DNA of 64,000 bases from Achromobacter deleyi. Its GTDB lineage: Bacteria; Pseudomonadota; Gammaproteobacteria; Burkholderiales; Burkholderiaceae_B. The first letter of the stretch is position 1, and each line of letters starts with the position of its first letter. Positions 4,133 to 48,111 of the stretch are shown piece by piece. The notes beneath the pieces were generated by a model. It worked only from the letters and a program-made list of their open reading frames with translations. It made no database searches and was not told the DNA's origin. The stretch spans positions 5,518,001-5,582,000 of the forward strand of contig NZ_CP065997.1 of the NCBI RefSeq assembly GCF_016127315.1, read 5' to 3'. A program made the translations under genes and the position numbers.

Positions 4133-4512
4133 ACACCCCGTCGATATCCGTCCCCCTGTACCGCCTGGGCCACAGCCGCTCCGGCGACAAGGGCGACACC
4201 TCCAATCTCAGCCTGATCGCCTGGGGCCCCGAATGCTATGAGGCGCTGGCCGCGCAGGTCACCGAGGCGCGCGTGGCGGCCTGGTTCGCCTATCGCCAGC
4301 CGGCCCGCGTCACCCGCTACCTGCTGCCGACCCTGCACGCCATGAACTTCGTGCTCGAAGGCGTGCTGGACGGCGGCGTCAACGATGCCCTCAACCTGGA
4401 CGCGCACGGCAAGAGCCTGTCCTTCCGCTTGCTGGACATGACGGTCCAGGTCAGCCCCGCGCTGGCCGCCCGCCTGCCCGACATTGCGGGCGACCACCCC
4501 GCCCCCGCCTGA
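4129..4512 (+). CDS. Small AtuA-associated ferredoxin-fold-like protein
   Basis: A 127-residue protein with the motif LGHSRSGDKGDTSNLSLIAW near the N-terminus, typical of the short domain found at the C-terminus of, or next to, AtuA-like proteins. Its ATG overlaps the TGA of the preceding gene by four bases, so it is very probably the second subunit of one complex. No catalytic function is assigned to the family. Confidence 0.82.
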   Translation: MNTPSISVPLYRLGHSRSGDKGDTSNLSLIAWGPECYEALAAQVTEARVAAWFAYRQPARVTRYLLPTLHAMNFVLEGVLDGGVNDALNLDAHGKSLSFRLLDMTVQVSPALAARLPDIAGDHPAPA

Positions 4513-4566
4513 CCCCGCAGCACCACCACGACAACAACACACACAACACACGACAGGAGACACACC

Positions 4567-5541
4567 ATGCGCTTTACCCTCAAGGGCCGGCTGGCCCTGC
4601 TGCTGGCGGCCTTGCCGCTGACGGCCCTGGCCCAGGGCACCCCGGCGGGCTTTCCCGCCAAGCCGATCACCTTCATCGTGCCATTCGCCGCCGGCAGCGC
4701 CACCGACCAGATCGGCCGCGCCATCGGCCAGGGCGTCACCGAACAGACCGGCCAGGCCGTGGTGATCGAGAACAAGCCCGGCGCCAGCGCCATGATCGGC
4801 GCCGCCACCGCGGCCCGCGCGGCCCCCGACGGCTACACCGTGCTGATCACCACCAACACCACCCATGCCGCCAACGAGCACCTGTACAAGACGCTGACCT
4901 ACCATCCCATCAAGGACTACGCGCCGATCTCGCTGCTCGGCAAGGGCGGCCAGATCATGGTGGTCAATCCCAACTCGACCGCCAAGTCGGTCGGCGACTT
5001 CCTGGCGCAGGCGCGCCAGTCGCCCGGCAAGCTCAGCTTCGGCAGCGGCAGCTCCAGCAGCCGCATCGCCGGCGAACTGCTGCAGCAGATGGCCGGCGTG
5101 CAGCTGCTGCACGTGCCCTACAAGAGCAACCCGCTGGCCGTCACCGACCTGCTCGGCGGCCAGATCGACATGATGATCACCGACACCGCCACAGGCCTGC
5201 CGCAGGTCAAGTCCGGCAAGCTGCGCGCGTTGGGCGTGACGGGCCTGACCCGCTCGCCGCTGGCGCCGGACGTGCCCACCATCGCCGAGTCCGGCGTGCC
5301 GGGCTACGAGATGGGCTACTGGTTCGCGGCCTACGCGCCGGCCGGCACCCCGCCCGACGTGGTCAAGCGCCTGAACGAGCTGCTGGTCAAGGCCACGCAG
5401 AGCGCCCCGGCCAAGCAGTTCTACGCCCAGACCGGCACCGACCCGGCCAGCTCCACGCCCGACGAACTGGCGCAGTTCCAGCTGGCCGAGTCGAAGAAGT
5501 GGGGCGACATCATCAAGAAGGCCGGCATCCAGCCGGAATGA
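4567..5541 (+). CDS. Bug-family tripartite tricarboxylate-type solute-binding receptor
   Basis: A 324-residue periplasmic protein with a cleavable signal peptide ending near ALA-Q (residues 1-23). It has the Bug/TctC signatures: YPAKPI-like 'FPAKPITFIVPFAAGSATD', VVIENKPGASAMIGAATAARAAPDGYT and PDVPTIAESGVPGYE. No TctA/TctB membrane genes are adjacent, which is common for the expanded Bug families of Bordetella and relatives. It is co-transcribed with the AtuA-like pair (54-bp gap), so it probably captures the substrate of that pathway. The exact ligand is unknown. Confidence 0.93.
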   Translation: MRFTLKGRLALLLAALPLTALAQGTPAGFPAKPITFIVPFAAGSATDQIGRAIGQGVTEQTGQAVVIENKPGASAMIGAATAARAAPDGYTVLITTNTTHAANEHLYKTLTYHPIKDYAPISLLGKGGQIMVVNPNSTAKSVGDFLAQARQSPGKLSFGSGSSSSRIAGELLQQMAGVQLLHVPYKSNPLAVTDLLGGQIDMMITDTATGLPQVKSGKLRALGVTGLTRSPLAPDVPTIAESGVPGYEMGYWFAAYAPAGTPPDVVKRLNELLVKATQSAPAKQFYAQTGTDPASSTPDELAQFQLAESKKWGDIIKKAGIQPE

Positions 5542-5582
5542 CGCGACGCGGGGCCCCCGCCCCGCCACCCTGCACGCAAACG

Positions 5583-5617
5583 AAAAAAGCCCCGTCGCAC
5601 ACGCGACGGGGCTTTTT
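5583..5617. terminator. Bidirectional rho-independent terminator
   Basis: A run of A, then GCCCCGTCGC, a short CA-rich loop, GCGACGGGGC and TTTTT. It lies between the convergent Bug gene (ends 5541) and fpr (ends 5640) and has A/T tracts on both sides, so it can serve both. Confidence 0.9.
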
Positions 5618-5639
5618 GCTGGCGCGGAGCAACCGCGCT

Positions 5640-6416
5640 TTATTTGTCGACGAAGGCGCGCTCGACCACGTAGTCGCCCGGCTGGCCCACGCCCGGCGAC
5701 ACCACGAAACCGCGCTTGTCCAGCATGGCGCTGATGTCGGCCAGCATATGCGGGCTGCCGCAGATCATGGCGCGATCGGTTTCCGGGTTGATCTGGGGAA
5801 TGCCGATGTCGGCGCACAGCTTGCCGTTTTCCATCAACTCGGTGATGCGGCCCTGGTTGCGGAACGGCTCGCGCGTGACGGTCGGGTAATAGACCAGCTT
5901 GTCGCGCACCACGTCGCCGAAGAACTCGTTGTTCGGCAGCTCGTTTTCGATGAAGTCGGCGTAGGCCAGCTCGCTGACCCAGCGCACGCCGTGCACCAGG
6001 ATGACCTTGTCGAAGCGTTCGTAGACGTCCGGGTCCTTGATGATGCTCATGAAGGGCGCCAGGCCGGTGCCCGTGCCGAACAGGAACAGGTGCTTGCCCG
6101 GCCGGAGGTCGTCGACCACCAGCGTGCCGACCGGCTTGCGGCTGACCAGGATGGTGTCGCCTTCTTTCAGGTGCTGCAGGCGCGAGGTCAGCGGACCGTT
6201 CTGCACCTTGATGCTGAGGAATTCGAGGTTTTCTTCGTAGTTGGCGCTGGCGATGCTGTAGGCTCGCAGCAGCGGCTTGCCTTCGACTTCGAGGCCGATC
6301 ATGACGAAGTGGCCGTTGTGGAATCGCAGGGCCGCGTCACGCGTCGTGGTAAAGGAGAACAGGGTGTCGTTCCAGTGGTGCACGCTCAGTACACGCTCGG
6401 TATTGAAAGCAGCCAT
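5640..6416 (-). CDS. fpr: Ferredoxin--NADP+ reductase
   Basis: A 258-residue cytoplasmic flavoprotein of the bacterial subclass I type, matching the usual length when started at MAAFNTERV (6416); longer upstream frames were not used. The FAD-binding motif is RAYSIAS and the NADP-binding region has LFGTGTGLAPFMSI. It shuttles electrons between NADPH and ferredoxin/flavodoxin and is commonly tied to oxidative stress or iron release from storage proteins. It is divergent from an iron(III) ABC transporter across a region with Fur-box-like sites, which supports an iron-linked role here. Confidence 0.95.
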   Translation of the reverse strand: MAAFNTERVLSVHHWNDTLFSFTTTRDAALRFHNGHFVMIGLEVEGKPLLRAYSIASANYEENLEFLSIKVQNGPLTSRLQHLKEGDTILVSRKPVGTLVVDDLRPGKHLFLFGTGTGLAPFMSIIKDPDVYERFDKVILVHGVRWVSELAYADFIENELPNNEFFGDVVRDKLVYYPTVTREPFRNQGRITELMENGKLCADIGIPQINPETDRAMICGSPHMLADISAMLDKRGFVVSPGVGQPGDYVVERAFVDK

Positions 6417-7939: not shown

Positions 7940-9610
7940 ATGCATACAGATTCCCTGCCCCGGCCGCTGCGTTTGCGCTGGGCTGAACGCGGCGCCGGCT
8001 GGCTGGCTGGCGCCGCCCTGATCGGCCTGGCGGTGCTGGCGCCGGTGCTGACCCTGGTCTGGTGGGCCATGGGCGGCGACCTGTCGCACTGGCGCCACCT
8101 GGCCACCTACGTGTTGCCGCAGGCGCTGGCCAACACCGCCATGCTGCTGGCCGGCGTCGGCGTGCTGGTGACGCTGCTGGGCACCGGCTCGGCGTGGCTG
8201 GTGACGGCCTACGAATTCCCCTCGCGGCGCGCCCTGACCTGGGCGCTGCTGCTGCCGCTGGCGGTGCCGACCTACATCATCGCCTTCGCCTATCTCGACC
8301 TGCTGCACCCGATCGGCCCGATCCAGAGCGCCATCCGCGCGCTGCTCGGCTACGACAGCCCGCGCCAGTTCCGGCTGCCGGACCTGCGCTCGATCCAAGG
8401 CGCGATCTTCGTGCTGGGCTTCGTGCTCTACCCCTACGTCTATCTCAGCACCCGCGTCATGTTCATGACGCAGGCCGCCAGCCTGCTGGAAGCGGCGCGC
8501 ACGCTGGGCGCGGGCCGCTACGGCGTGTTCTTCCGCGTGGCGCTGCCGCTGGCGCGCCCGGCCATCGTGGTCGGCGTCAGCCTGGCGTTGCTGGAAACCC
8601 TGAACGACATCGGCGCCTCGGAGTTCCTGGGCGTGCAGACCCTGACCGTGTCCGTCTACACCACCTGGGTCACGCGTTCCGACCTGGCCGGCGCGGCGCA
8701 GATCGCGCTGACCATGCTCGCCATCGTGATCGGCCTGATCCTGCTGGAGCGCCACGGCCGCAAGCGCCAGCGCTACGCCAACACCCAGCGCATGCGGCCG
8801 ATGCAACCACGCCGGCTGCGCGGTCCCGCCGCGGCGCTGGCGGCGGTGCTGGGCTGGATCCCGGTGATCGTCGGCTTCGTCGCGCCGGCGCTGTACCTGG
8901 TCGTCGAGACCTACAAGCGCCTGCACATGGTCGGCGGCGTCTCCAGCCAACTGCTCAACGGGCTGGGCAACACGCTGATCGTGGCATTCAGCGCCACCAT
9001 CGTGACGCTGGTCTGCGGCCTGATCGTGGCCTGGGCCGGCCGCACGCTGCGCGAAAGCGCCGGCTTCAACCCGGGCCGCGCCTGCGCCCGCGTCGCCAGC
9101 CTGGGCTACGCCGTGCCGGGCACCGTGCTGGCCATCGGCCTGCTGACGCCGTTCGTCTGGATCGACACCGCCGTGGCCAAGATCTTCGGCGGCAGCGGCC
9201 TGTTCCTGATGGGCTCGATGGCGGCGCTGGTATGCGCCTATGCCATCCGCTTCCTGGCCATCTCCACCGGCGCGCTGGAAGCCGGCCTGGCCCGCATCCC
9301 GCCGTCGCTGGAGCAGGCCTCGCGCCTGCTGGGCGAGAGTTCGACCGGCACCTTGCGCCGCGTCCACCTGCCGCTGCTGCGCCCGGCGCTGGCGGCCAGC
9401 GCGCTGCTGGTGTTCGTGGACGCCATGAAGGAACTGCCGGCCACGCTGCTGCTGCGGCCCATGAATTTCGACACGCTCGCCACCTGGCTCTATGCCGAAG
9501 CGGCCCGCGGCACCTACGAGGAAGGCGCCGTCGCCGCGCTCGCGATCGTGCTGGCCGGCCTGCTGCCCGTCATCCTGTTGGCCCGCACCAATCTGAAAAT
9601 GGGACATTGA
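7940..9610 (+). CDS. fbpB: Iron(III) ABC transporter fused permease
   Basis: A 556-residue inner-membrane protein made of two similar permease halves, each with about six membrane segments, as in FbpB/HitB-type ferric permeases. EAA-like coupling loops appear in each half (LLEAARTLGAGRYGVFFRVALPLARP and LEQASRLLGESSTGTLRRVHLPLLRP, quoted in part). It forms the channel for Fe3+ passed from the binding protein at 6744. Its stop touches the ATPase start, indicating coupled translation. Confidence 0.94.
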   Translation: MHTDSLPRPLRLRWAERGAGWLAGAALIGLAVLAPVLTLVWWAMGGDLSHWRHLATYVLPQALANTAMLLAGVGVLVTLLGTGSAWLVTAYEFPSRRALTWALLLPLAVPTYIIAFAYLDLLHPIGPIQSAIRALLGYDSPRQFRLPDLRSIQGAIFVLGFVLYPYVYLSTRVMFMTQAASLLEAARTLGAGRYGVFFRVALPLARPAIVVGVSLALLETLNDIGASEFLGVQTLTVSVYTTWVTRSDLAGAAQIALTMLAIVIGLILLERHGRKRQRYANTQRMRPMQPRRLRGPAAALAAVLGWIPVIVGFVAPALYLVVETYKRLHMVGGVSSQLLNGLGNTLIVAFSATIVTLVCGLIVAWAGRTLRESAGFNPGRACARVASLGYAVPGTVLAIGLLTPFVWIDTAVAKIFGGSGLFLMGSMAALVCAYAIRFLAISTGALEAGLARIPPSLEQASRLLGESSTGTLRRVHLPLLRPALAASALLVFVDAMKELPATLLLRPMNFDTLATWLYAEAARGTYEEGAVAALAIVLAGLLPVILLARTNLKMGH

Positions 9611-35812: not shown

Positions 35813-35870
35813 ATAGGCTCTCACACTGTGCGCTGTGGACTTGCTGCCCCAAGGGGGCAGCAAGGGCGTG

Positions 35871-35951
35871 AGGCCGCCCGCGCCATCGCCCGCTAGCACA
35901 CTTCGATCCAGCATGACCGGCACCTGTTCAGCGGCCTTGTCGGCACGCGTC
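35871..35951 (-). pseudogene. Remnant of the tpsA/cdiA pre-tail segment
   Basis: On the minus strand this reads ADKAAEQVPVMLDRSVLAGDGAGGLT (quoted in part) and aligns with residues around 2540-2562 of the big exoprotein (nt 37369-37449, KTADQVLAMLDRSVLAGDGAGGLT). By hand I count about nine mismatches over 74 bp. It starts two bases after the stop of the small gene at 35953 and diverges right after GGLT. It has no start and no continuation, so it is a scar, not a gene. Confidence 0.82.
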
Positions 35952-35952
35952 C

Positions 35953-36447
35953 TTACTCAAGGCGTTCCTTGCCGCGGCGGGTAAAATGCCGCGGCGGCGG
36001 GCGATCCCCCAGCGATTGCGGCGGCCACACGTCCGACGCCCATGTTGGCCACGATCTGCCGTTTGGCGCAGGAGGAGGTGGGCCGCATTTCTCTAGTTGG
36101 TGGCACGGGGGAACGAACTGGTAGCCCTTTTTCTGCATGCAGCGTTTAAGCTCATCACGCAATGCCATTGACTCCCTACGATACCGTTCGTCATGAACAG
36201 TAAGCTTGCTATAGTCCTTAATATAGAAGCTTCCGTCTTTATCTCCACCGCATTCTTTCCAATCCACCCAACGTGCTTCCTCTGTTTGGCCATTGAGCGG
36301 CCAATACCACTCCATCGGGAGGACGAAGTACATAATCCAGGCTTGTGCCTGGGGCGATCGGCACATATATCGCGGAAGCGTGAGGCAGCAGCCCGCCACT
36401 AAGAGCAATAAAGCTAATGAAAAAAATAGTCTAATTGTTGTTTTCAT
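35953..36447 (-). CDS. Cys-rich putative lipoprotein, candidate immunity/partner of the TpsA tail
   Basis: A 164-residue protein not recognised as a known family. The start ATG 36447 overlaps the TGA of the exoprotein gene as ATGA, so translation is coupled. Residues 1-20 are a lipoprotein signal (basic start, LALLLLV, lipobox V-A-G-C20). There are seven Cys in all, and RCMQKKGYQF resembles short segments of other small lipoproteins. The C-terminal third is Pro-rich and basic. The gene is noticeably more AT-rich than its neighbours, suggesting acquisition by transfer. Position (last gene of a B-A-I operon) suggests an immunity protein acting in the cell envelope. This is inference: it could instead be an accessory lipoprotein. 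Confidence 0.6.
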   Translation of the reverse strand: MKTTIRLFFSLALLLLVAGCCLTLPRYMCRSPQAQAWIMYFVLPMEWYWPLNGQTEEARWVDWKECGGDKDGSFYIKDYSKLTVHDERYRRESMALRDELKRCMQKKGYQFVPPCHQLEKCGPPPPAPNGRSWPTWASDVWPPQSLGDRPPPRHFTRRGKERLE

Positions 36448-39400
36448 CGCTTCAGCCTCAACAAAATGTCCAGCGCTTTCCATGCCTGGGGAGGCAGGGC
36501 TTCAGACAGCGCAAACGGGGTGGCGGGCACGAGCGCAATATCGGTCCAGATTTCGTACATGAAATTCTGCGCAGGCGTCAGGCCGCGCCGGGCATTACCC
36601 TGCTTGTCGTAATAGCCGCTCAGGGTGCCGCCGATGAAGTCATGCGAGCCGCCATAAGCCTCGTGCGCAAGATCAAGAATTCCCCCTGGCGAATACCCAA
36701 AACCGAGAAGCGTTCCAGGTCCACCTTGGTTGCCGCCCGTGGGGCCGGACATCTCCTTACCTGGATCGGATTCGAGAAATGCGGCCATCGTCATCCCGAC
36801 CTGGGATGGATCAAACTGGACGCGCCCATTTCCATCCAACTCAAGTTTCGGAATGCCGTTTTCATCCAGGATATTCTTTCCATAGGAATCCACCTGCCTT
36901 TTGCACTGATCATTCGTGGGTCCACATAGCGTGTCCAACACCACCCGCGTCCCCGCCGTCTTAAATCCATCGCCCCGAATACCCGCGCTTTCCCCACTCT
37001 TGTTATCCAGCGTCGTCTCGCCATCGGTAATCCCCGCGAACTTCTCAGAATCCGCGATCGTGTACCGCCGCATGCGGTCGGCCGCCTCCGACAAACCCGC
37101 CTGCAGCGCCGCCACGCCGCCTGAGCCGCTCAGCGCGCCCACCGCCACGTTCAGCAGCCGTTCCTGGGTATTGATCTCGTTGATCTGTGCCTGCAGCGCC
37201 TCGATCTTTTCCGGGTCTTGCGTGGCCTTGATCTGCTGGCGCAATTCCGCGCGTTTCTGTGCCGCGTGGCGTTCGATGGCGGCGCCGGCCTGCTGGCCGA
37301 ACGCCGCGACGATTTCCGCTTCGGCCTGCACTTGCCGGCGCAGCTTGTCGCCATCCCATTTTTTCGTCAGGCCGCCGGCGCCATCGCCCGCCAGCACGCT
37401 TCGATCCAGCATGGCCAGCACCTGATCGGCGGTCTTGCCGGTGCGTTCCCGCTGGGCGTTGGCATCGGCGATGGTCACGGCCGCGCCGCTGATACCGCTG
37501 TGCGTCACGCTGTTCTCGCTGCCCTTGCGCGCGCTCATGCCCGGCGCACCGGCGCTGACGCTGTTGCCGAAGTTGTGCGCCGACCATGTATCACCTTTGC
37601 CAGCGACATTGCTGGCCGAGGACTCATCAGCCTTCCTGGCGCTGCCGTCGTCGCCTTCTTTCTTGCCGCCTGACGGCTTGTCGTCACCGGCAACGCTGAA
37701 GCCTCCCGACAGGCTCACCCCCGTCGCCTTGTACCGGCTGTGGTTCTCGATGTCGCTGACGGTCAAGCTGCCTGTCATCACGCTATTCAAACCCCGCTTC
37801 ACCGCCTCTTCGGACGAGGCGATGGCCGCGCCCTTGAGGTCGGTGTTGTCCTGGACCCTGATCTTGAAGCCGTCATCGCCGGCTTCAAGGCGCGATTGCT
37901 CCATGACGCTGGCGAAATCGCCATCCACCTTGTTGTTGGCGTAGCTGCCGCTGGCGGCGAACCCCGTCCCCGCCGTCACGCTGCCGCCGATCTGGGTGTC
38001 CCTGCTTTTGAAGGTACTGGTGTCTTGCAGGCTCTCGATGCTGAGGTTGCCGCCCGCGTCGGCCACCACCTGCTTGCCGCTGGCCACCGCGCCGCGCAGG
38101 CGGGTGTCGCCGCCGGATTCCAGGGTCAGACGCTCGCCGGCGGTGACATGGCTGTGGGTCCAGGTCACGTCTTTGCCTTCGCCGTTGCCTCCGGCCCCGC
38201 TCGCATTGGCGGTCACGCCGAACGCCGGGCCGCCTTGGCCCACGGAAATCGCCGCGCCCACGCCCGCGCTGGCGCTGCTGTTCTTGCGGTCGGTTTCGAC
38301 GGTGTTTCCAGCCGCCAGCAGGTTGATGCCGCCATCGGCCTTCAGTATGGCGTCGCCACCCGCGCTGATGTCGCTGCCGCGCACGGTCAGGTCTGAATCC
38401 CGACTGCCGGCGGCACGGATGCGCACATCGCTGCCCGCGGCCACGCTTGAACCGGCAGCCGTATCGGTGGCGGTGGTGGATTTGCTGTCGCTTTTGCTGG
38501 CACCCACGGTGATGGAAACATTGACGCCGCCGGCCGCCTGCGGGTCGGCCTGGACGGCATCGTAGGCGTTCTTGGCTGCCAGCCCCGTGGCTGCGCCTGC
38601 CAGCGCCCGCATGCGTCCGTCAGTCGTCTGGCCGACAGCGCGCTTCATCTGCCCTGCGGTCTCGATGGCCGCAAGCACCGGAGCCGTCAACGCCACGGTC
38701 AGTCCGGACTGGCGGAACTTGCTTTGTTCCACGCTTCTGCCGGTTTCCCGCGCGTCGACGATATCCACCTTTTGGGCGCGGATGTCGATATCGCCTTGCG
38801 GCGCCAGTACATGGCTGCCGATCTGCTGATAGCGATCACCCGCCACCAGGGTGACGTCGCCCTCCGTGGAACCCACGGTCGAGGCGGCAGCACGGGTAGT
38901 GACGCCCCGGCGGTCGCCGCTTTGCATCTGGCTGCCGATGGTGAAGGCGAGCCCCCCGGTGTAGAGGAAGCCACTTTTCCGGGTTTCCTTGAAATGGCTT
39001 TCCGTGCTGGTTTCGGTGGCGGCCTGGAGGGTCAGGTTGTTATTGGCCACAATAGTCGTGCCGGCATCGGAGACGACGTTGCTGCCGGTGACGGTGACAT
39101 CCTGACCGCGCACCGCGACGGTGTCGCCGCTGAAGGTGCTGGCAATCGCCCGGCTATCTTCCCGGCTGTCGCGGGTGGTCTTTTTGCTGGAGCCCAGCAG
39201 GCTCCTGGACTTGTGCTGGTGGGCTTCGGCCCAGTTGCTGCTCGCTTCGCCAGCCAGGATGTTCACGTCCCCCTGCGCCACGACAGCCAGGACGCCCTGC
39301 TCGCTGGTGACACTGGCGGCGGTGGCGTTCAGATCGCGCCCGGCTTGCAGGCGCAGGTCGCCTGCCGTGCTGATCTGGCTGCCCACATCTTGCGCGTAGC

Positions 39401-42400
39401 CTTGTTTGAGATAGTTTTGGGCGTTGCCGACGTTGTTTTCCTGTTCGGCGATCCTGACCGTGCCCAGCGTCAGGTCGCGGCCGGCGACGACAGCCGTCTG
39501 GCCATCCTTGCCGCTATGGATGACCCGGGCCGCAATCAGGCTGGCGTCGCGGCCCGCCGAGGCGAGCAGAATGCCGCCCGGGCTGGTGACGTAGAGGCCC
39601 GCCACGCGGTCCAGGCTGGTTCGGCTGAAATCGCTGCGTCCGGCCCGCCTGGCGCCGCTGTGGGTGGTACTGGCGACATTGAGGTCGCGTCCTGCCGTGA
39701 GCTGTAGTGCGCTACCCCCGCTCAGGGTTCCGCCGATGTTGTCGATATCGGTCCGGGCGTCAAGCGCCATGGCATCGCCAGCGATGCGCCCGCCAAGATT
39801 ACGCAGGTTCTCGCCGGCAAGACTGACCACTGCGCGTCCTGCAATGGTGCCGGAATTGACAAGATCGCCTTTCAGGTTGAAGTCGATGGCGCTGGCGGCC
39901 AACAGGGCACCGTTGCCGTCAATGTCGCCTGGCCTTACGCGGACGTACACTTGCGGCACCAGGGCGCGCGTGATACTGCCGTCGGCCAGCGTCACGTCGC
40001 GTTCGACCAGCCAGACGATGTCGCTGGTGAGCTGGGCCACCTGCCTGGCACTGAGTGCCACGCCAGGACGCAGATTCCATTCTTTCGCATAGGTGACGCC
40101 TGCGTCCAACAAGGCCTGGTACTGCGCTTCGTCACTGGCGTAGCTGTCGAGGAATCGGCGGCCAGTCAACTGGCCTATCTGGTCGCGAACCAGGTTCTGT
40201 TCGTAGAAACCGTCGCCCAGTCGCTTGTGCACGGTGGCCGGGTCATGGCCAAGCTGGGACAGCATGTAGTCTGAACTGAGCCAGTTGCGGTAGTCGGCGA
40301 AACGCGGGTCGGTCTCGACCAGGTAACCACTGGCATTCGGGGCAACACGAAACAGGCTGTTGGCGGGCGTGTTCGCGTCCACCTGAACGGTGCGAATGAT
40401 CACCGGCGCCTCGCCGTTGCCGCCCGCCGCCTCCTGTCCCGGGATCCGAACGGGACCGCTACCGTCATTAACGTGTGCCCCCGTGCCGCCCCCCGGACTG
40501 TCGACGCGGTTTACGTCCGCCAGGACTTCCGTTATCCGCTTTGGGTCAGAACTGCCGTTGGCGCGGACGCCGTCGCCCACGATGGCGCCGACCTGATGCT
40601 CCTGGCGTTCAGTCACCGCGAAGCCGCTGCCTATGCCAGCGGCATTCTGCACGACGCTGGAAACATCGAGGTCGATCGTGTTCACGATGTCGTCCGGGGC
40701 GTAGGCAATCTTCCCGTCCCATTTGCGCTGGTGATAACGTTTCGCGCCACCACGCCATTTTGAGTAGGTGTACTGGCTGGTTCCGCTCTGACGGATCCGG
40801 TGCTCGCCCGGGGCAGCCACGTTGTCGATCCGGGTCAGGTCGCCCTGCAGGACGCCGCCAGCGATGATCCGGCTCTTGTCGTTGACCAGTTCATCGCCAC
40901 GCAAGGTCATATTGCCGCCCGCGCGGATGAGCGCCGGCGCGCTTTCGACCACCTGCGTTTGGTACTCAGTTCGGATGACGTCGTATTGGGTCCAGTCATG
41001 AATCTTCGCACCAGTTTGTTTGTGCCGATAACGCCCGGCGCGGCTCCAGCCTTCCCAGCGGTACTCGCCGGCATCGTGTTTTTCAGGATTGCCTTCAGGT
41101 TGGATATACAGGTACCTGGTCGGGCCGCTGATTTGCGCCAGTTCGGTACGGAAATGCAGATTGCGATTGAGCAAACGGGCGCTGTCGACGGTCAGGCCGC
41201 CCAGTGACTCGATGGTGGCGCTGTCGTTGAGGATGAGATCGGCGCTTGCGGCGGCCTGGTCGTTGGCGTCCAGCGTGCCGCCGATGTTCAGCGCATCACT
41301 GCCGCCGCCCGCGCTGAAAATCAGCGCCTTCTCCCGGTTGTTGATTAAGCGGGCGCCGATATCCAGACGCTGACGCGCCGCGAGGACGGCGGCGAGCCCC
41401 CCTTCCTCGCGGTTGTTGACGGTACCGGCCCGGATGGCAAGATGATCGCCATAGAGCCGACCGCTGCCCACGTTATCCAGGGCGCCAGCGTCAATGCGTG
41501 TCTGGCTGCCGTCGATAAGTCCACGGTTGGTCAGGGCGTTGCGGGCGGCGACGGTGGTGCGTACGCCATGCATCTCACCGGTGACGCTGTTGTTGACGTC
41601 GGCGCCCTGTACGTCCAGGTCGCCTGCCTGCAATATGCCGTGGTTGGTCAACAGGCCCGCGGTGCCGATACCGGCGCGGCCGTTGGCGGTGATTTCCCTG
41701 AGGTTGGTGAAGTCCTGCCGCAGGCTCAGGCGCAAATCCCCCCTGGACAACAGGCTGCCGTCACCGCCCAGGCTGTCGGCGGTCACGTTGAGTAATTGGC
41801 CGGCAATCAGCGTGCCGAGCGGATTCAGGACACGGCTGACGGCGATGTCGATGCTGCCGCCCGAAGAGATACTGCCGCGCGTGTTATCGAGCTGATCTGC
41901 CGCGTCCGGGCCACGGATACCGATACGGCCGTCGGCTGCGATGGTGCCGGCGGTGTTGTCAATGTGGCTGGCTGCGAGCGCCACGCTGGCGCCCTGCAAG
42001 CCGAGCGGCTGACTGGCGTGCACGCTTTGCGTGTCGCGGTTGAGGATCCGCGCGGCGTTAAGAGTCAGGCCATTACCCGCGACCGTCAGGCCGCCATTGT
42101 TGTTTGCGACCCCGGAGAGGAAGGCCTTCAGGTCATTGCCCGCCTGAACCCTGCCGCCAGCGTTACCGATCAACGTTGCGCCGATATCGGCATCAGCGCT
42201 GCCTCCCAGTTGCCCGGCAGCGTTGTCGATGTCGCCGGTATGGGCAATCAGATCTCCCTGGCTATGCACGACGCCGTCGCGATTATTCAGGTCGCCGCTG
42301 TTCAGAGCCAGCGTGTCGCCGCTGAGGATGCCGCCAGTGCTGCCGGCATCGATATTGGTCAGTGCCTGGCCATGCGTGTCCACGCGCATCCCCTGCCGGG

Positions 42401-45056
42401 ACTGCAGCAGACCGCGGGCATTGTTCAGCGCACCGCTGTCGATGTTGAGCAAACCGCCGGTGCTGGCGATGGTGCCGCCGGCGTTGTCGAGCGAGGCCAG
42501 ACGCGTATCAACCGCGACGCTGGCGCCGAATACCGTGCCACCGGCATTGCCAAGTCCACCATTGGCCAGGCTGACATCACCCGCACCCTGCAGGGTGCCG
42601 CCAGCATTCTCGGTGCGGCCGCGAGTGTCCACGCCCAGCCTGCCTTCGGTGGAGAAAATCCGCGCGCCATCGCGGTTGTCCAGCGAGCCGCCTCGCACGT
42701 CGACCTTGCCAACGCTGGCTATGAGGCCGCCGTCATGGTTATCAAGGTTGCCGGCGACGTCGACGTCCAGGCCCCCGTCGCTGGCACTCTGTACCGTGCC
42801 GCGCTGGTTGAGCAGCCCTCCCGCCCGCACGGTGGTGGCTCCGGCCGTGCCCAGCGTGCCGCCGGCATTGTCCAGAAAGCCCGCCACGTCGATGCGGGTG
42901 TCCGCCGTGCCCGCCGTCTGCACGATGCCATCGCGGTTAACCAGCGAGCCGGCCTGGAAATCGAGTGCGCCATTACCGGCGATGATTCCCGCGGAATTGT
43001 CCACGCGCTCCCTAGCCCGGATCGTAAGCAGGTCCTCGCCGGTGGCGATGAGTTTGCCGCCGACATTGAGCAGGCGACCGGTATTGATACGAATACGCTC
43101 GCCGGAGGTGTTGCCGCCGCTGAGGTCGGTGCTATCGCCACGGATATCGAGCGCACCACTGCTGACGATGCTCCCGCCGGCCCCCAGCAGGTCGGCGGCC
43201 TGTAACGTGGCATCACCCGATGTGATGACATTGCCGCGACGGTTATCAAACTGCCCTTCAATGACAATGTGGCTGGCGTTGCTGGCCAGCGTACCGTCGC
43301 GGTTGTCGAGCCGTCCCTTGATCCTGATATGGGTATGGGAATTGTCGCTGTGCAGGAAAGCGCCGGCACGGTTGGAGAATTCCTGCGCGCTCAGGATGAC
43401 AGGACCGTTCAGTTGCATCAGACCTTCATCGTTGTTGAGCAACCCCGTGGTCATCCGGGCGTCGGCAGCAATCCTGATTTCTCCATTGTGGTTGCCGAGG
43501 TCGCCACCGCTCACTTCAAAATGACGCGCCCCCAGATGTCCACCGTCATTGTCGAGACCGTCGCTTGCGCTCAGGTCGATGTGCCCGCCAGCCAGGATGC
43601 GGCCACCGTCGTTGTCAATCGTGGCGGCGATGTTGAGTGCCCCCTTGGGCAACGATGCAATGCCGGCGTCCGGCTGAGTGCCATCGTCGCCAGCGTTCCC
43701 GCCATGCGGCGAGTTCCCAACAGCGCTGTCAGTTCCGCCACTCGCCCCCGCTTTCGGCACGTCACCAACGCCCGAAGCCGTATCCGTCCGTGGCTCGGCG
43801 AGACCGATACGACCGCCATCGCGGTTACTGATGTGACCCGTCTGAAGTGCCAAGTCCTGCAAACCGGTCTGTCCGATGACCCCGTCACGGTTCTTCAGGG
43901 ACTGCGCAATCGCTTCGATACGCCCCGCATTGAGCGTCCCCTTGCGGTTGTCGATATCCTTCTGGGTGTTGATCACCAGTTCGCGGCCGGCACTGAGCGT
44001 GCCGGCATTGGCAAGGCCGCCGCTCGCGTCTATGCGAGCGTCAGTGCCGGCCTGCATCGTTCCGAGGTTTTCCAGACGTCCGTCGGCGGTGAGCACCAGT
44101 TGCCCGGCCTGAGCGCCCATCGTGCCGGCGTTGCGCACCCCGACGCCATGCTCGGTTCCCACCAGCACGATCTTCTGGCTGTACATGCCGCCGAGCGCGC
44201 CTACATCCAGCGCGAAGGCTGGCGCATCACCACTGGCGGCGGCCTTCCGTACCTTCGCATGGTCGGCGCTGACGTCATTGCTCCCGGTGGTGATCTGAAG
44301 CTGCCGCGCCCAGATCCCGGCGTTGGCTTGCACGGAGCGGGCAATCAGATCCGTGTAGTTCGTGGCACTGGCATCCATGCCCTGGCCATCGACACGGATG
44401 GTGCCGCCCTTGACCCGATAGCTCTCCAGCGCGCCCCCAGTGATGACCGGCCGGCCGGTGGTGAGGATGGCGCGGTCCGCGTTGATGAAGCCGCAGCCAT
44501 CGCAGGAAATGCCTGCCGGGTTGGCGACGACAAGCTGCGCCCGATCGCCCGCGACCTCGACATAGCCATCGAGCCGGCTCGGGTCACTGGAGTTGACTTC
44601 ATTGAGGATGACACGGGCCGTGCCGCGCGCCAGCCACGGGTTGCCCTGAACCCAGCCGCCGAGCTGCGTTTGCGTGTCCCTGCGGGAATTGTTGAGGATG
44701 GCGCCCTGCTGCCCGACATCGAACTGACTGTAGGTATTGCGTGAAACGCCGGCTGCACTCGGGGTCTGAATATTCACCAACGGGACGCCGTTAGCCGCTT
44801 CCAGCACCGTCGGCCGCTGATTGCCGGGAGCGCCAGGGTCGGCCATGACCTGTGCATTCGTCGATGTAATGATGGCCGCCTGCCCGAGAGCGAAAGCCAA
44901 GGCAAGGCCCAGCGGTCTGAATGTGGCAAAGAAACGGCTGCCGACGGCGCCTCCACCCGCGCCTTGACCCGGTCCGTCACGCCGGGCAATTTCCGTGACG
45001 ACCTGGAACAGGCCCAGAGCCCGGTTGAAAACAATGCGGTGGAGGTTCCTGTTCAT
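36444..45056 (-). CDS. Filamentous haemagglutinin / CdiA-like TpsA exoprotein
   Basis: A 2870-residue secreted protein. An extended signal peptide region (MNRNLHRIVFNRALGLFQVV) is followed by cleavage near residues 67-69 (NAQ), then the TPS secretion domain (about 70-310) with SSDPSRLDGYVEV, NPAGI (179-183) and CDGCGF. A long beta-helix of FHA repeats follows. Near 1310-1420 is a non-repeat segment with many aromatic residues (YIQPEGNPEKHDAGEYRWEG), where CdiA proteins carry receptor-binding regions. A conserved block NASGYLVETDPRFADYRNWL lies near 1570, then FHA-2 repeats. After GDGAGGLT (about 2562) a 308-residue tail contains TLDNKSGESAGIRGDG and GGSHDFIGGTLSGYYDKQGN. No VENN motif was seen. 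The tail resembles ends of other large betaproteobacterial haemagglutinins; its activity is unknown to me. Confidence 0.9.
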   Translation of the reverse strand: MNRNLHRIVFNRALGLFQVVTEIARRDGPGQGAGGGAVGSRFFATFRPLGLALAFALGQAAIITSTNAQVMADPGAPGNQRPTVLEAANGVPLVNIQTPSAAGVSRNTYSQFDVGQQGAILNNSRRDTQTQLGGWVQGNPWLARGTARVILNEVNSSDPSRLDGYVEVAGDRAQLVVANPAGISCDGCGFINADRAILTTGRPVITGGALESYRVKGGTIRVDGQGMDASATNYTDLIARSVQANAGIWARQLQITTGSNDVSADHAKVRKAAASGDAPAFALDVGALGGMYSQKIVLVGTEHGVGVRNAGTMGAQAGQLVLTADGRLENLGTMQAGTDARIDASGGLANAGTLSAGRELVINTQKDIDNRKGTLNAGRIEAIAQSLKNRDGVIGQTGLQDLALQTGHISNRDGGRIGLAEPRTDTASGVGDVPKAGASGGTDSAVGNSPHGGNAGDDGTQPDAGIASLPKGALNIAATIDNDGGRILAGGHIDLSASDGLDNDGGHLGARHFEVSGGDLGNHNGEIRIAADARMTTGLLNNDEGLMQLNGPVILSAQEFSNRAGAFLHSDNSHTHIRIKGRLDNRDGTLASNASHIVIEGQFDNRRGNVITSGDATLQAADLLGAGGSIVSSGALDIRGDSTDLSGGNTSGERIRINTGRLLNVGGKLIATGEDLLTIRARERVDNSAGIIAGNGALDFQAGSLVNRDGIVQTAGTADTRIDVAGFLDNAGGTLGTAGATTVRAGGLLNQRGTVQSASDGGLDVDVAGNLDNHDGGLIASVGKVDVRGGSLDNRDGARIFSTEGRLGVDTRGRTENAGGTLQGAGDVSLANGGLGNAGGTVFGASVAVDTRLASLDNAGGTIASTGGLLNIDSGALNNARGLLQSRQGMRVDTHGQALTNIDAGSTGGILSGDTLALNSGDLNNRDGVVHSQGDLIAHTGDIDNAAGQLGGSADADIGATLIGNAGGRVQAGNDLKAFLSGVANNNGGLTVAGNGLTLNAARILNRDTQSVHASQPLGLQGASVALAASHIDNTAGTIAADGRIGIRGPDAADQLDNTRGSISSGGSIDIAVSRVLNPLGTLIAGQLLNVTADSLGGDGSLLSRGDLRLSLRQDFTNLREITANGRAGIGTAGLLTNHGILQAGDLDVQGADVNNSVTGEMHGVRTTVAARNALTNRGLIDGSQTRIDAGALDNVGSGRLYGDHLAIRAGTVNNREEGGLAAVLAARQRLDIGARLINNREKALIFSAGGGSDALNIGGTLDANDQAAASADLILNDSATIESLGGLTVDSARLLNRNLHFRTELAQISGPTRYLYIQPEGNPEKHDAGEYRWEGWSRAGRYRHKQTGAKIHDWTQYDVIRTEYQTQVVESAPALIRAGGNMTLRGDELVNDKSRIIAGGVLQGDLTRIDNVAAPGEHRIRQSGTSQYTYSKWRGGAKRYHQRKWDGKIAYAPDDIVNTIDLDVSSVVQNAAGIGSGFAVTERQEHQVGAIVGDGVRANGSSDPKRITEVLADVNRVDSPGGGTGAHVNDGSGPVRIPGQEAAGGNGEAPVIIRTVQVDANTPANSLFRVAPNASGYLVETDPRFADYRNWLSSDYMLSQLGHDPATVHKRLGDGFYEQNLVRDQIGQLTGRRFLDSYASDEAQYQALLDAGVTYAKEWNLRPGVALSARQVAQLTSDIVWLVERDVTLADGSITRALVPQVYVRVRPGDIDGNGALLAASAIDFNLKGDLVNSGTIAGRAVVSLAGENLRNLGGRIAGDAMALDARTDIDNIGGTLSGGSALQLTAGRDLNVASTTHSGARRAGRSDFSRTSLDRVAGLYVTSPGGILLASAGRDASLIAARVIHSGKDGQTAVVAGRDLTLGTVRIAEQENNVGNAQNYLKQGYAQDVGSQISTAGDLRLQAGRDLNATAASVTSEQGVLAVVAQGDVNILAGEASSNWAEAHQHKSRSLLGSSKKTTRDSREDSRAIASTFSGDTVAVRGQDVTVTGSNVVSDAGTTIVANNNLTLQAATETSTESHFKETRKSGFLYTGGLAFTIGSQMQSGDRRGVTTRAAASTVGSTEGDVTLVAGDRYQQIGSHVLAPQGDIDIRAQKVDIVDARETGRSVEQSKFRQSGLTVALTAPVLAAIETAGQMKRAVGQTTDGRMRALAGAATGLAAKNAYDAVQADPQAAGGVNVSITVGASKSDSKSTTATDTAAGSSVAAGSDVRIRAAGSRDSDLTVRGSDISAGGDAILKADGGINLLAAGNTVETDRKNSSASAGVGAAISVGQGGPAFGVTANASGAGGNGEGKDVTWTHSHVTAGERLTLESGGDTRLRGAVASGKQVVADAGGNLSIESLQDTSTFKSRDTQIGGSVTAGTGFAASGSYANNKVDGDFASVMEQSRLEAGDDGFKIRVQDNTDLKGAAIASSEEAVKRGLNSVMTGSLTVSDIENHSRYKATGVSLSGGFSVAGDDKPSGGKKEGDDGSARKADESSASNVAGKGDTWSAHNFGNSVSAGAPGMSARKGSENSVTHSGISGAAVTIADANAQRERTGKTADQVLAMLDRSVLAGDGAGGLTKKWDGDKLRRQVQAEAEIVAAFGQQAGAAIERHAAQKRAELRQQIKATQDPEKIEALQAQINEINTQERLLNVAVGALSGSGGVAALQAGLSEAADRMRRYTIADSEKFAGITDGETTLDNKSGESAGIRGDGFKTAGTRVVLDTLCGPTNDQCKRQVDSYGKNILDENGIPKLELDGNGRVQFDPSQVGMTMAAFLESDPGKEMSGPTGGNQGGPGTLLGFGYSPGGILDLAHEAYGGSHDFIGGTLSGYYDKQGNARRGLTPAQNFMYEIWTDIALVPATPFALSEALPPQAWKALDILLRLKR

Positions 45057-45095
45057 GCCATCGATTTCCTTTGCTTACGCGCAATCCGTGCGGAC

Positions 45096-46799
45096 TCAGC
45101 AGGACCAGTTGAGGCTGAAACCGGTCGTCAGCGACCCGCTCCGGAAACCTCCAGGCTTTGAGAGCGGCGTGCCGGCAGACAGATCCCACCAGAATCCTGC
45201 GGCGCCCCCGCGCAGGCCTATGACCGCGCCTGCAAGATTGCGCCCCTGGAGCCAACGAGTGGAAGGGCCGGATACATGGCCGTAGTCGGCCCCGAAATAG
45301 AGTTCCTGCGCGGCGCCCAGCTGCAGACCGATTTCGTTGCGCCAGACCCAGCCACGCTCGCCCACGAGCGTCAGTTCGCCGTCAAAGCCACGTACGGAGT
45401 AACGACCACCGATCGAGAAACGGTCTTGCGGCACCAGCGGTGTACCCTCCCATTGCGCGCGCCAGTTGCCGGTGTAGCGGGCACGCAGCGCCCCTGGCCG
45501 GAACGGGACCACCAGTTGAATATCGGCGGTGATGACCTTCATCCGCGAAGTGCCTTCGCCGAAGTCTTCTTCGGGCGCGGCCATCGCTTTGAAAGCGCCG
45601 GTGCCGTGCCGCCAGGCGAGACCCGCATCCAGCGCGCCTTCGCCCAGGAATTCACGGTGGGCCAGGCCCAATTCCCAACCGCCGGCTCGGCGCCGTTGAA
45701 CCCCGATTTCGGTGTCGTCGATGAAGTTGCCGGACCTGCGCATCCAGCCGCGTCCGTAGAACGAGGTCTTACGGCTGGCATCCCGGTAAACCAGACGCGA
45801 CAGGCGCATTTCGGCGTTGTTGCTGGTACCGCTATAGACGTAGTTCTGGCTGTATCCGGCAACGGTCTGGTGGTACCTGTAGCCGCTGATGGTGGTGCTG
45901 AGTGTCCAGTAGCCCCAGGGCACGCCGTAATGTGTGGTGTAACCGCGGGTACCCTTACCGCTGGCGTTGAATATGTCGTGGCTGACGTTGATGTAAAACA
46001 GATCGTTCGAGGAGAGTGGGGAGTCGAGCGAAAGTGTGGCTGCGCCCTGAAGCTTGCCGGTCGCCCTGCTGCCGGCGTCGTCCAGTGACATGCTGAAGCG
46101 CACGGGTGGGGAACGCTGCTGCCAGAGGATCACCAAATCGCTGTCGCCGGGGCGTGCATCGTCTCCCTCAGCAGGCGTGATTTGAATGTCGGCCTCTACG
46201 GTGGGCACGCGTCTGAAGTTTTCCAGCGCCTGTTCGATATCGCGCAGATTGAGCAGGTCGTCGCGCCTGACCGGCACGGCGTTCGAGGCCGTGGCCTGGC
46301 GCGACGTGCCCGGCGAAAAACGAATGGCGCGGACGCGACCGGGCACGACGGTAAGCGTCAGCGTGCCTCCCTTCAGATCTTGGGGCGCGGCGAGGATACG
46401 GGTAGTGACGAACCCGCGCGCAACGACGGCGTTCTGCACGCGCGCCATGACCACGCTGATGCCCTCGGCGCCAAGACAGCGTCCCGTGGCGGCATCGTTC
46501 TCGGGGTCGGCGGCGCTCAGGGCCCAGAGAAACCGCTGGGCATCCTCGCCATCCAGACGGATACGGCCAATCGGAAAACATGGCGTCTCGTCCTGCGGCA
46601 ACAGATCCAGCGACGGAGCGCGCGCCGGCTGCGCCCGTGCATTCGGCGCCGTTTCCTGCTGCCTGCGTAATATCCTCTCGCGCTCCTGCTGGCGCAGCAG
46701 TTCCTGCGCGGCGCCATCCAGCGTCTGCGCAGACGCCGATACCATGCACACCAGCAGGCTGAACGAGAGCCATACCCCCTGCCACAACCACCCGACCAT
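45096..46799 (-). CDS. Two-partner secretion outer-membrane transporter TpsB (ShlB/FhaC/CdiB family)
   Basis: A 567-residue protein: signal peptide ending at ASA-QTL (about residue 24), a Gln/Arg-rich helix (LLRQQERERILRRQQE), two POTRA domains (about 75-230), then a 16-strand barrel with the conserved VRGFDGE motif of the L6 loop. It exports the TpsA encoded 39 bp downstream. The C-terminus reads TTGFSLNWSC: the last residue is Cys where an aromatic is usual for the BAM signal, although Trp is two positions earlier. It heads the transporter-exoprotein-small protein operon. Confidence 0.94.
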   Translation of the reverse strand: MVGWLWQGVWLSFSLLVCMVSASAQTLDGAAQELLRQQERERILRRQQETAPNARAQPARAPSLDLLPQDETPCFPIGRIRLDGEDAQRFLWALSAADPENDAATGRCLGAEGISVVMARVQNAVVARGFVTTRILAAPQDLKGGTLTLTVVPGRVRAIRFSPGTSRQATASNAVPVRRDDLLNLRDIEQALENFRRVPTVEADIQITPAEGDDARPGDSDLVILWQQRSPPVRFSMSLDDAGSRATGKLQGAATLSLDSPLSSNDLFYINVSHDIFNASGKGTRGYTTHYGVPWGYWTLSTTISGYRYHQTVAGYSQNYVYSGTSNNAEMRLSRLVYRDASRKTSFYGRGWMRRSGNFIDDTEIGVQRRRAGGWELGLAHREFLGEGALDAGLAWRHGTGAFKAMAAPEEDFGEGTSRMKVITADIQLVVPFRPGALRARYTGNWRAQWEGTPLVPQDRFSIGGRYSVRGFDGELTLVGERGWVWRNEIGLQLGAAQELYFGADYGHVSGPSTRWLQGRNLAGAVIGLRGGAAGFWWDLSAGTPLSKPGGFRSGSLTTGFSLNWSC

Positions 46800-47043: not shown

Positions 47044-47814
47044 TCAGCCGCGGCCGACGAACGGCATGTTGGTCGCCATGATCGTCATGAACTGCACGTT
47101 GGTGTCCAGCGGCAGGCGGGCCATGGCGGCAACGGCCTGGGCGACGTGGGCGACGTCCATGCGCGGCTCGACCTTGGTGCTGCCGTCGGCCTGCAGGATG
47201 CCGGCGGCCATGCGCTCGGTCATGTCGGTGGCGGCGTTGCCGATGTCGATCTGGCCGCAGGCGATGTGGTACGGCCGGCAGTCCAGCGAAATCGACTTGG
47301 TCAGGCCGGTCACCGCGTGCTTGGTGGCGGTATAGGCGATCGAGAACGGACGCGGCGCGTGCGCCGAGATCGAGCCATTGTTGATGATGCGGCCGCCCTG
47401 CGGCGTCTGCGCCTTCATCACGCGGATCGCGGCCTGCGCGCACAGGAACATGCCGGTCAGGTTGGTATCGACCACCTCGCGCCAGAGCGCCACCGGCAAT
47501 TCCTCGATCGGCATGGCGGGCGCGCCGCGGCCGGCATTATTGAACAGCACGTCGAGGCGGCCGTATTCACGCTGGGCGGTGTCGAACAGCTCGCGCACCG
47601 CCTGCTCATCCGACACGTCGGTCGGCACCACCAGCGCCCGCACCCCGTCTTCACCCGCCGCCGTGCGCGTGGCTTCGAGCGGTTCGCGCCGGCGGCCGGC
47701 CAGCACCACGCGATAGCCCTGCGCCAGGAATTCCAGCGCCACCGCCCGGCCGATGCCGGTGCCGGCGCCGGTGACCAGCGCAACGCGGGGAGGTTCGATC
47801 TCGTTCGTGTGCAT
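47044..47814 (-). CDS. Short-chain dehydrogenase/reductase (SDR)
   Basis: A 256-residue classical SDR. The cofactor motif is TGAGTGIGR, followed by NNAGRG, the catalytic Ser in NGSISAH and Tyr-x3-Lys in YTATKHA. Arg residues after the motif (AGRRRE) suggest NADP. The ATG at 47814 is preceded by AAGGAG at good spacing; a longer frame upstream was not used. The substrate is unknown. It is divergent from the tsdBA pair. Confidence 0.93.
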
Positions 47815-48111
47815 TGGATGCTCCTTGTTATCTGTCGGCGAAATGCTACCCGAATCATTCTGGGGATGGTGCAAGCGAACGTTCCATGGGCCGCCGGCGA
47901 TTCACAACCCCAGGTTCGCGCCATTTGGCCCTCGGGGCCTGCCCCGCGCGTTGCGCCGCGCATCATGCCGTTCCGGCCAGATTTATTTTCCTTCGCAAAA
48001 TTCGAGCGCGATCAATTCCCCTGTTTTGCATTGATACATCACAATTTTCCTTATAATTTTGAGCAATTAACTTATTACCAAAAATCCAATACCCCTGACG
48101 GAGACACCTCC
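47815..48111 (+). promoter_or_regulatory. AT-rich promoter region of tsdBA
   Basis: A 297-bp gap between divergent genes. The half near tsdB is AT-rich and has TATAAT at 48052-48057, with TTGATA (48031-48036, 15-bp spacing) as a poor -35 option. The TTGAT-N4-CACAA around 48031-48044 resembles an FNR site only in one half. No other feature was seen. Confidence 0.4.

Follow-up and report, generated by a model that had tools for sequence, protein, structure and literature searches.

A CDI-type two-partner locus of Achromobacter with an exchangeable C-terminal domain and a lipoprotein as putative immunity protein

Introduction

Contact-dependent inhibition (CDI) loci of the cdiBAI type are among the closest described systems to the locus analyzed here. 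The C-terminal half of CdiA is stored in the periplasm of the producer and released into the periplasm of the target cell (PMC11630599). The reviewed CDI toxins act in the cytosol or the inner membrane, and their entry depends on a receptor in the inner membrane (PMC9086364, PMC11630599). Other CDI lineages use the motifs ELYN or WVHN instead of VENN (PMC3415462, PMC9086364). For the bcpAIOB systems of Burkholderia, BcpI was described as immunity protein and BcpO as accessory protein (PMC3415462). Among polymorphic toxin systems, Imm65, the immunity protein paired with Tox-JAB-1, carries a lipobox and is described as unique in this respect within its collection (Zhang et al., 2012, PMC3482391). 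Lipocone toxins are predicted to have transmembrane or lipoprotein immunity proteins and to act at the membrane or in the periplasm; their four-helix core places the active-site residues His and Asp in H2 and H4, respectively (PMC12419801). Finally, for the envelope-acting pairs VgrG2b/PA0261 of a T6SS (PMC6899460) and Smlt3024/Smlt3025 of a T4SS (PMC6759196) periplasmic toxicity is countered by periplasmic or lipoprotein immunity.

The locus described here was found in a stretch of 64,000 nucleotides, called the window in the following. It resembles cdiBAI in its TpsB/TpsA pair, the FHA repeats, an exchangeable C-terminus with a small gene and remnant modules downstream. In contrast to cdiBAI, VENN is missing, the candidate toxin family lies outside Pfam and NCBIfam, and the immunity candidate is a lipoprotein.

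Organization of the locus

The host genome, belonging to the genus Achromobacter, consists of a single contig of 6.99 Mb. The open reading frames of the window revealed the order TpsB, TpsA, small lipoprotein gene, all on the minus strand. The TpsB/CdiB-like outer-membrane transporter of 567 aa (45096..46799) matched ShlB (1.8e-100), POTRA_2 and POTRA_3. Separated by 39 nt follows the gene for the TpsA/CdiA-like exoprotein of 2870 aa (36444..45056), with matches to ESPR, TPS, Fil_haemagg_2 (4.9e-47), TIGR01731 and TIGR01901. Its TPS secretion domain comprises residues 68-329 (44070..44855, minus strand; PF05860, 2.1e-52), and the best Fil_haemagg_2 stretch of the haemagglutinin repeats comprises residues 2184-2353 (37998..38507, minus strand; PF13332). 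Adjacent genes for a POTRA-bearing TpsB and for a TpsA that combines a TPS domain with FHA repeats are expected of a CDI system and are present here. The same holds, by position, for the small gene directly 3' of tpsA, whose ATG overlaps the TpsA TGA (ATGA) and whose immunity role is putative. The reading frames with their coordinates, order and lengths, the lipobox and the ATGA overlap had all been given in the initial annotation and were found again without change.

The product of the small gene, a predicted lipoprotein of 164 aa (35953..36447, minus strand), starts with a signal peptide carrying the lipobox VAGC (36388..36399, minus strand) with Cys20, and D is absent at position +2. By the +2 rule, a missing D at this position would point to the outer membrane. 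C66, C103 and Y109 were invariant in 45 aligned members of the lipoprotein family (alignment A3, in the following the A3 family). The structural model of the lipoprotein was middling (73.6), and library searches yielded no convincing Pfam or NCBIfam family for it.

Exchange of the C-terminal cassette

Two genes outside the system mark the insertion site, on the left an NlpC/P60 gene (35213..35812, plus strand; PF00877) and on the right a gene with a reductase-like translation as judged by eye (47044..47874, minus strand). As these flanking genes are neighbours in genome G011, only 180 nt apart, and each of them is found in 42 of 43 genomes of the genus, the operon represents an insertion of 11 kb. 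Comparing the genomes of the genus, TpsB copies in G009, G018, G020 and G040 were 80-88% identical. The C-terminal domain characterized below, GHD-PFA, was found in four genomes, G000, G009, G018 and G040.

Genome G020 has the same two flanking genes and a TpsB 81% identical to that of the window. Its TpsA shared 64% identity with the window TpsA over residues 474-2605, followed by an unrelated end. The identity was already uneven from residue 2451 on, and the blocks at residues 2571-2650 showed identities of 0.23-0.25 to G020 versus 0.95-0.97 to G040. The similarity to G020 ends in a helical pre-tail region (residues 17-118 of the AlphaFold2 model of the tail; 37047..37352, minus strand). The TpsA of G020 instead ends in PF21111, an EC869-like CDI toxin with a nuclease domain, and the gene behind it encodes a PF07262 CdiI, which, unlike the small protein of the window, has no lipobox in its translation. 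Two more copies of toxin end and immunity gene were recognized downstream by translation (L155, G020:C31:1900-18300). Since the same site thus carries either pair, the tail and the small gene form, judged by sequence comparison, an exchangeable cassette of the toxin/immunity type. The classification as a CDI-type locus, already proposed in the initial annotation, is supported by this exchange.

The base composition changes along the operon, with a GC content of 65.3% for the TpsA body, 56.7% for its last 167 codons and 53.7% for the lipoprotein gene, compared to 67.5% for the window. Just past the lipoprotein gene we found a remnant of 77 nt that duplicates DNA from the pre-tail part of tpsA (35867..35943, minus strand; source 37365-37441) with 67 of 77 positions identical. 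In G000 a protein match lies at the place of this remnant, which is not mentioned in the initial annotation. Plus-strand loci of relatives carry different C-termini on related stalks.

The GHD-PFA domain family

Using the last 311 TpsA residues as query, 68 of 7991 scored proteins were matched at E<=0.001, 65 of them with PF13332 and 3 with RHS-type domains. A profile built from 16 tails matched 145 shorter proteins. A peptide pattern around the motif G-x-H-D, employed for one genome of each of 84,980 species, yielded 68 stretches and 45 confirmed loci. Two of 72,556 plasmid records matched the tail, both from Enterobacter and one of them typed as conjugative; in both loci, which were outside the profile building, the tail is followed by a gene with a lipobox that belongs to the A3 family. 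Three proteins of the SpvB/TcdB_midN/RHS type (L080, L083, L089) also end in the GHD-PFA domain, and the lipobox proteins encoded behind them belong to families other than A3.

Structure prediction for the tail alone, a check suggested in the initial annotation, gave a confident AlphaFold2 model (pLDDT 86.9). The well-modeled C-terminal GHD-PFA domain of about 186 aa (36447..37004, minus strand), the proposed toxin domain, is further supported by conserved columns and by its homologues on TPS and SpvB/RHS carriers. A 20-residue helix (model residues 241-260) bears a His-Asp pair (residues 253-254; codons at 36639..36644, minus strand), which was invariant in the 90 tails of alignment A2; the invariance is partly built in, as the locus search pattern itself contains G-x-H-D. 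Other strongly kept residues in model numbering are G222, G223, Q225, Y236, D243, E247, Y264, G268, N269 and P295-F296-A297.

Library searches with the tail gave no convincing Pfam or NCBIfam family. Fold searches, which barely covered the last domain, gave no significant match for tail or lipoprotein. Phospholipase A2-like enzymes combine a His-Asp pair in a helix with a calcium loop, and the G-x-H-D of the tail may resemble this pair. No phospholipase A2 family was found among the best 25 of 29 Pfam families for the tails. VENN, ELYN and WVHN are all absent near the tail, and the sole ENN lies far from it at residue 1873; the locus was therefore not placed in the VENN class (E. coli-type). 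The last approximately 186 aa of the tail form, as far as homology searches can tell, a family that neither Pfam nor NCBIfam contains, carried on TPS proteins, Enterobacter plasmids and SpvB/TcdB/RHS proteins. By the same comparisons this family spans Beta- and Gammaproteobacteria.

Both described classes with lipobox immunity proteins were compared to the pair. Like Imm65, the small protein is a polymorphic-toxin immunity candidate with a lipobox; the partner of Imm65, however, is a JAB-domain toxin. Among the families listed at E<=1 for the 90 tails (best 25 of 29) and the 45 lipoproteins (10 of 10), no Imm or JAB family was seen. With the Lipocone toxins the locus shares a candidate toxin tip and a lipoprotein partner candidate, and GHD-PFA may be related to them. 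It bears its His-Asp pair on the helix 241-260, and the helix motifs and spacing described for the Lipocone toxins were not evident in it (PMC12419801). VgrG2b/PA0261 and Smlt3024/Smlt3025 differ in being delivered by T6SS and T4SS, and no sequence relation to them was seen.

Association of tail and lipoprotein

We compared the surroundings of the tail stops with those of all further long ORFs in the window and in these 45 loci. A lipobox ORF started between -60 and +150 nt from the stop for 37 of 51 tails, but only for 6 of 179 other ORFs (Fisher p 6e-25, kinship ignored). The 51 tail stops include remnants; a 52nd, from L057, was dropped as its contig ends. Widening the reach to +600 nt resulted in 37 of 49 tails versus 11 of 177 other ORFs. 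Of 268 genomes of the bacterial family, 9 carry the tail. All 9 also carry the lipoprotein family, which gave a single further match, weak and doubtful (G008, E 6.8e-4, internal stop), a co-occurrence with a Fisher p of 6e-16, again ignoring kinship.

The tails fall into the subtype HD-xxGG and one other. A lipoprotein of the A3 family was found beside the tail in 30 of 34 HD-xxGG loci and in 0 of 11 loci of the other subtype. These counts are partly circular, since most of the sequences behind A3 come from the very loci counted and two pairs of loci are near-duplicates (L050/L051, L053/L054). Of the 11 other-subtype loci, 8 (L070, L075, L079, L080, L082, L083, L084, L089) carry an unrelated lipobox protein beside the tail, that of L079 being flagged by the looser lipobox pattern only. 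In the remaining three (L074, L086, L087) just a hydrophobic N-terminus was seen by eye right behind the tail. In L087, a 34-residue signal-peptide match to A3 lies 0.7 kb away. A Pfam scan of the carriers for 6 of the 11 loci gave three of the SpvB/TcdB/RHS type, one of the TPS type, one short contig with an RHS repeat and one without match. L070 has a TPS/FHA carrier but the other tail subtype and a different lipoprotein, indicating that the lipoprotein family follows the tail subtype and not the carrier.

Four HD-xxGG loci lack the A3 lipoprotein. In L057 the contig ends 2 nt past the tail stop, and in L088 the tail is cut short. L071 has a short tail ORF, a next small ORF with a signal-like start and no lipobox, and beyond it, by eye, transposase-like genes. 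L056 of Cupriavidus gilardii, in contrast, has an intact tail (7968-8507) and no A3-family lipoprotein within 16.5 kb, part of which is masked; directly behind the tail a TpsB-like gene was recognized by translation, corresponding to an A-B order. The idea of the initial annotation that the lipoprotein is the dedicated partner of the tail is supported by adjacency, co-occurrence, lipoprotein arrays and the change of family with the subtype. An observation that the initial annotation had named as refuting its proposal, the tail without a lipoprotein gene, was made once at an intact and well-covered locus, L056.

Arrays of lipoprotein genes were found in several genomes. Bordetella genomosp. 1 (L052/L150) has five with short tail remnants between some of them, A. 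dolens three with tail remnants, the third being split across two frames, and L073 six, in which array no tail remnants were found. The array copies are 36-96% identical. Such arrays, with or without remnants of the tail, have the appearance of orphan immunity genes. Using the first lipoprotein of each of 25 loci, leaving out L051 and L054 as near-duplicates, the lipoproteins were less alike than the tails in 293 of 300 pairs (median identity 27% versus 47%). Tail and lipoprotein distances correlated (r 0.58, 0 of 999 permutations), a signal that co-evolution and shared ancestry produce alike.

Proposed mechanism and alternatives

Taking these data together, we consider it probable that the operon is a CDI-type TPS locus in B-A-I order, whose exchangeable cassette encodes an undescribed toxin domain, GHD-PFA, acting in the periplasm, and a lipoprotein as immunity protein. 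TpsB would export TpsA, the C-terminal end of which would wait in the periplasm of the producer until a target cell is met and would then be passed into the target periplasm. There GHD-PFA may act on the envelope, that is on lipid, a peptidoglycan precursor or the membrane. It is probably an enzyme, with the conserved His-Asp pair in its active site. The lipoprotein, held by its lipid anchor on the periplasmic side, would bind GHD-PFA and shield producer and siblings. With the C-terminus of CdiA being stored in and released into the periplasm, producer and sibling alike would have to be protected there against a domain that acts on the envelope. A lipoprotein could provide this, and envelope-acting T6SS and T4SS toxins do have partners of this kind (PMC6899460, PMC6759196). 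Moreover, the usual lipid-anchored neighbour in other genomes suggests that the tail attacks the envelope and not DNA or RNA inside the cell.

Alternatively, the toxin might finally act in the cytoplasm of the target, with the lipoprotein intercepting it before entry or keeping the stored C-terminus harmless. In favour of this, the majority of characterized CdiA C-termini are nucleases that reach the cytosol, and the producer stores the C-terminus in its periplasm (PMC9086364, PMC11630599). We nevertheless regard this as unlikely. The Pfam search of 90 tails gave no convincing nuclease family among the best 25 of 29 families, and the lipobox partner recurs over unrelated carriers and lipoprotein families. 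A lipoprotein CdiI was not found either: in the accessible text the word lipoprotein is absent from PMC11630599 and PMC3150448, and its single occurrence in PMC9086364 refers to BcpO.

Even less probable is a role of the lipoprotein as an accessory of secretion or maturation, with the true immunity function missing or located elsewhere. The model for this is BcpO, a predicted outer-membrane lipoprotein of a CDI operon needed for full activity (PMC3415462), and our locus shares with bcpAIOB a lipoprotein gene within a CDI operon. A lipobox-like ORF is also found some way behind the TpsA end L148 of the same genome. However, the order here is B-A-lipoprotein and not A-I-O-B, and size, position and variability differ. 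Lipobox-bearing BcpO has 73-74 aa, is nearly identical between alleles and is encoded before bcpB (PMC3415462), while the protein of the window has 164 aa, is encoded directly behind the tail and belongs to a strongly varying family (the above median of 27% identity). Furthermore, a different tail subtype comes with a different lipoprotein family even where the carrier is a TPS protein (L070), and lipobox genes also stand behind tails on RHS carriers.

It is very improbable that the tail, instead of being a toxin, serves an adhesin as periplasmic anchor or maturation domain and is tethered by the lipoprotein. FhaB-type proteins have functional C-terminal prodomains, and the tail domain is terminal and mostly near a lipobox gene. 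However, a CDI nuclease with its CdiI takes its place at this site in G020, the domain also ends RHS/SpvB carriers, and extra lipoprotein arrays with tail remnants are not explained by a tether.

Returning to the envelope-acting toxin with lipoprotein immunity, a broader generalization has in our view an even chance of being correct: GHD-PFA would be an undescribed family of envelope-acting polymorphic toxins common to TPS and SpvB/TcdB/RHS carriers, with immunity from several unrelated families, mostly lipoproteins, and thus a CDI class killing from the periplasm without entry into the cytosol. No description of the tail or of a lipoprotein CdiI was found in the accessible parts of the literature searched, mostly outside subscription journals. 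A class stopped by periplasmic lipoproteins would have a shorter delivery route and would make it necessary to protect the periplasm of the producer itself, in which the C-terminus is kept; it would also indicate an envelope target not described so far. As the family is wide, including a plasmid typed as conjugative, and nameless in Pfam and NCBIfam, many genes now called "hypothetical" could be annotated once the pair has a name.

Other TpsA ends and further tail loci

The same genome contains four other TpsA ends, two in L146 and one each in L147 and L148 (approximately 1.49-1.50, 1.58 and 1.94 Mb). Behind three of the four, small proteins without lipobox were found by eye. In L146, Imm45 follows one TpsA end, while the small protein behind the second matches HEAT repeats weakly. 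In L148 a longer ORF further behind the TpsA end contains a lipobox-like TSGC, so that the GHD-PFA tail is not the only TpsA end with a lipobox gene in its vicinity.

On the Enterobacter plasmids, the pairs of tail and lipoprotein are located at 4431-5886 (L153) and 5001-5859 (L154). The annotated start of the lipoprotein in L154 misses the signal peptide, and on one of the plasmids the tail is a separate ORF of 365 aa near traM. At a contig end of Methylotenera (L058, 100-3386) three tails of both subtypes stand in a row, the second and third of them followed by lipoprotein genes of the A3 family.
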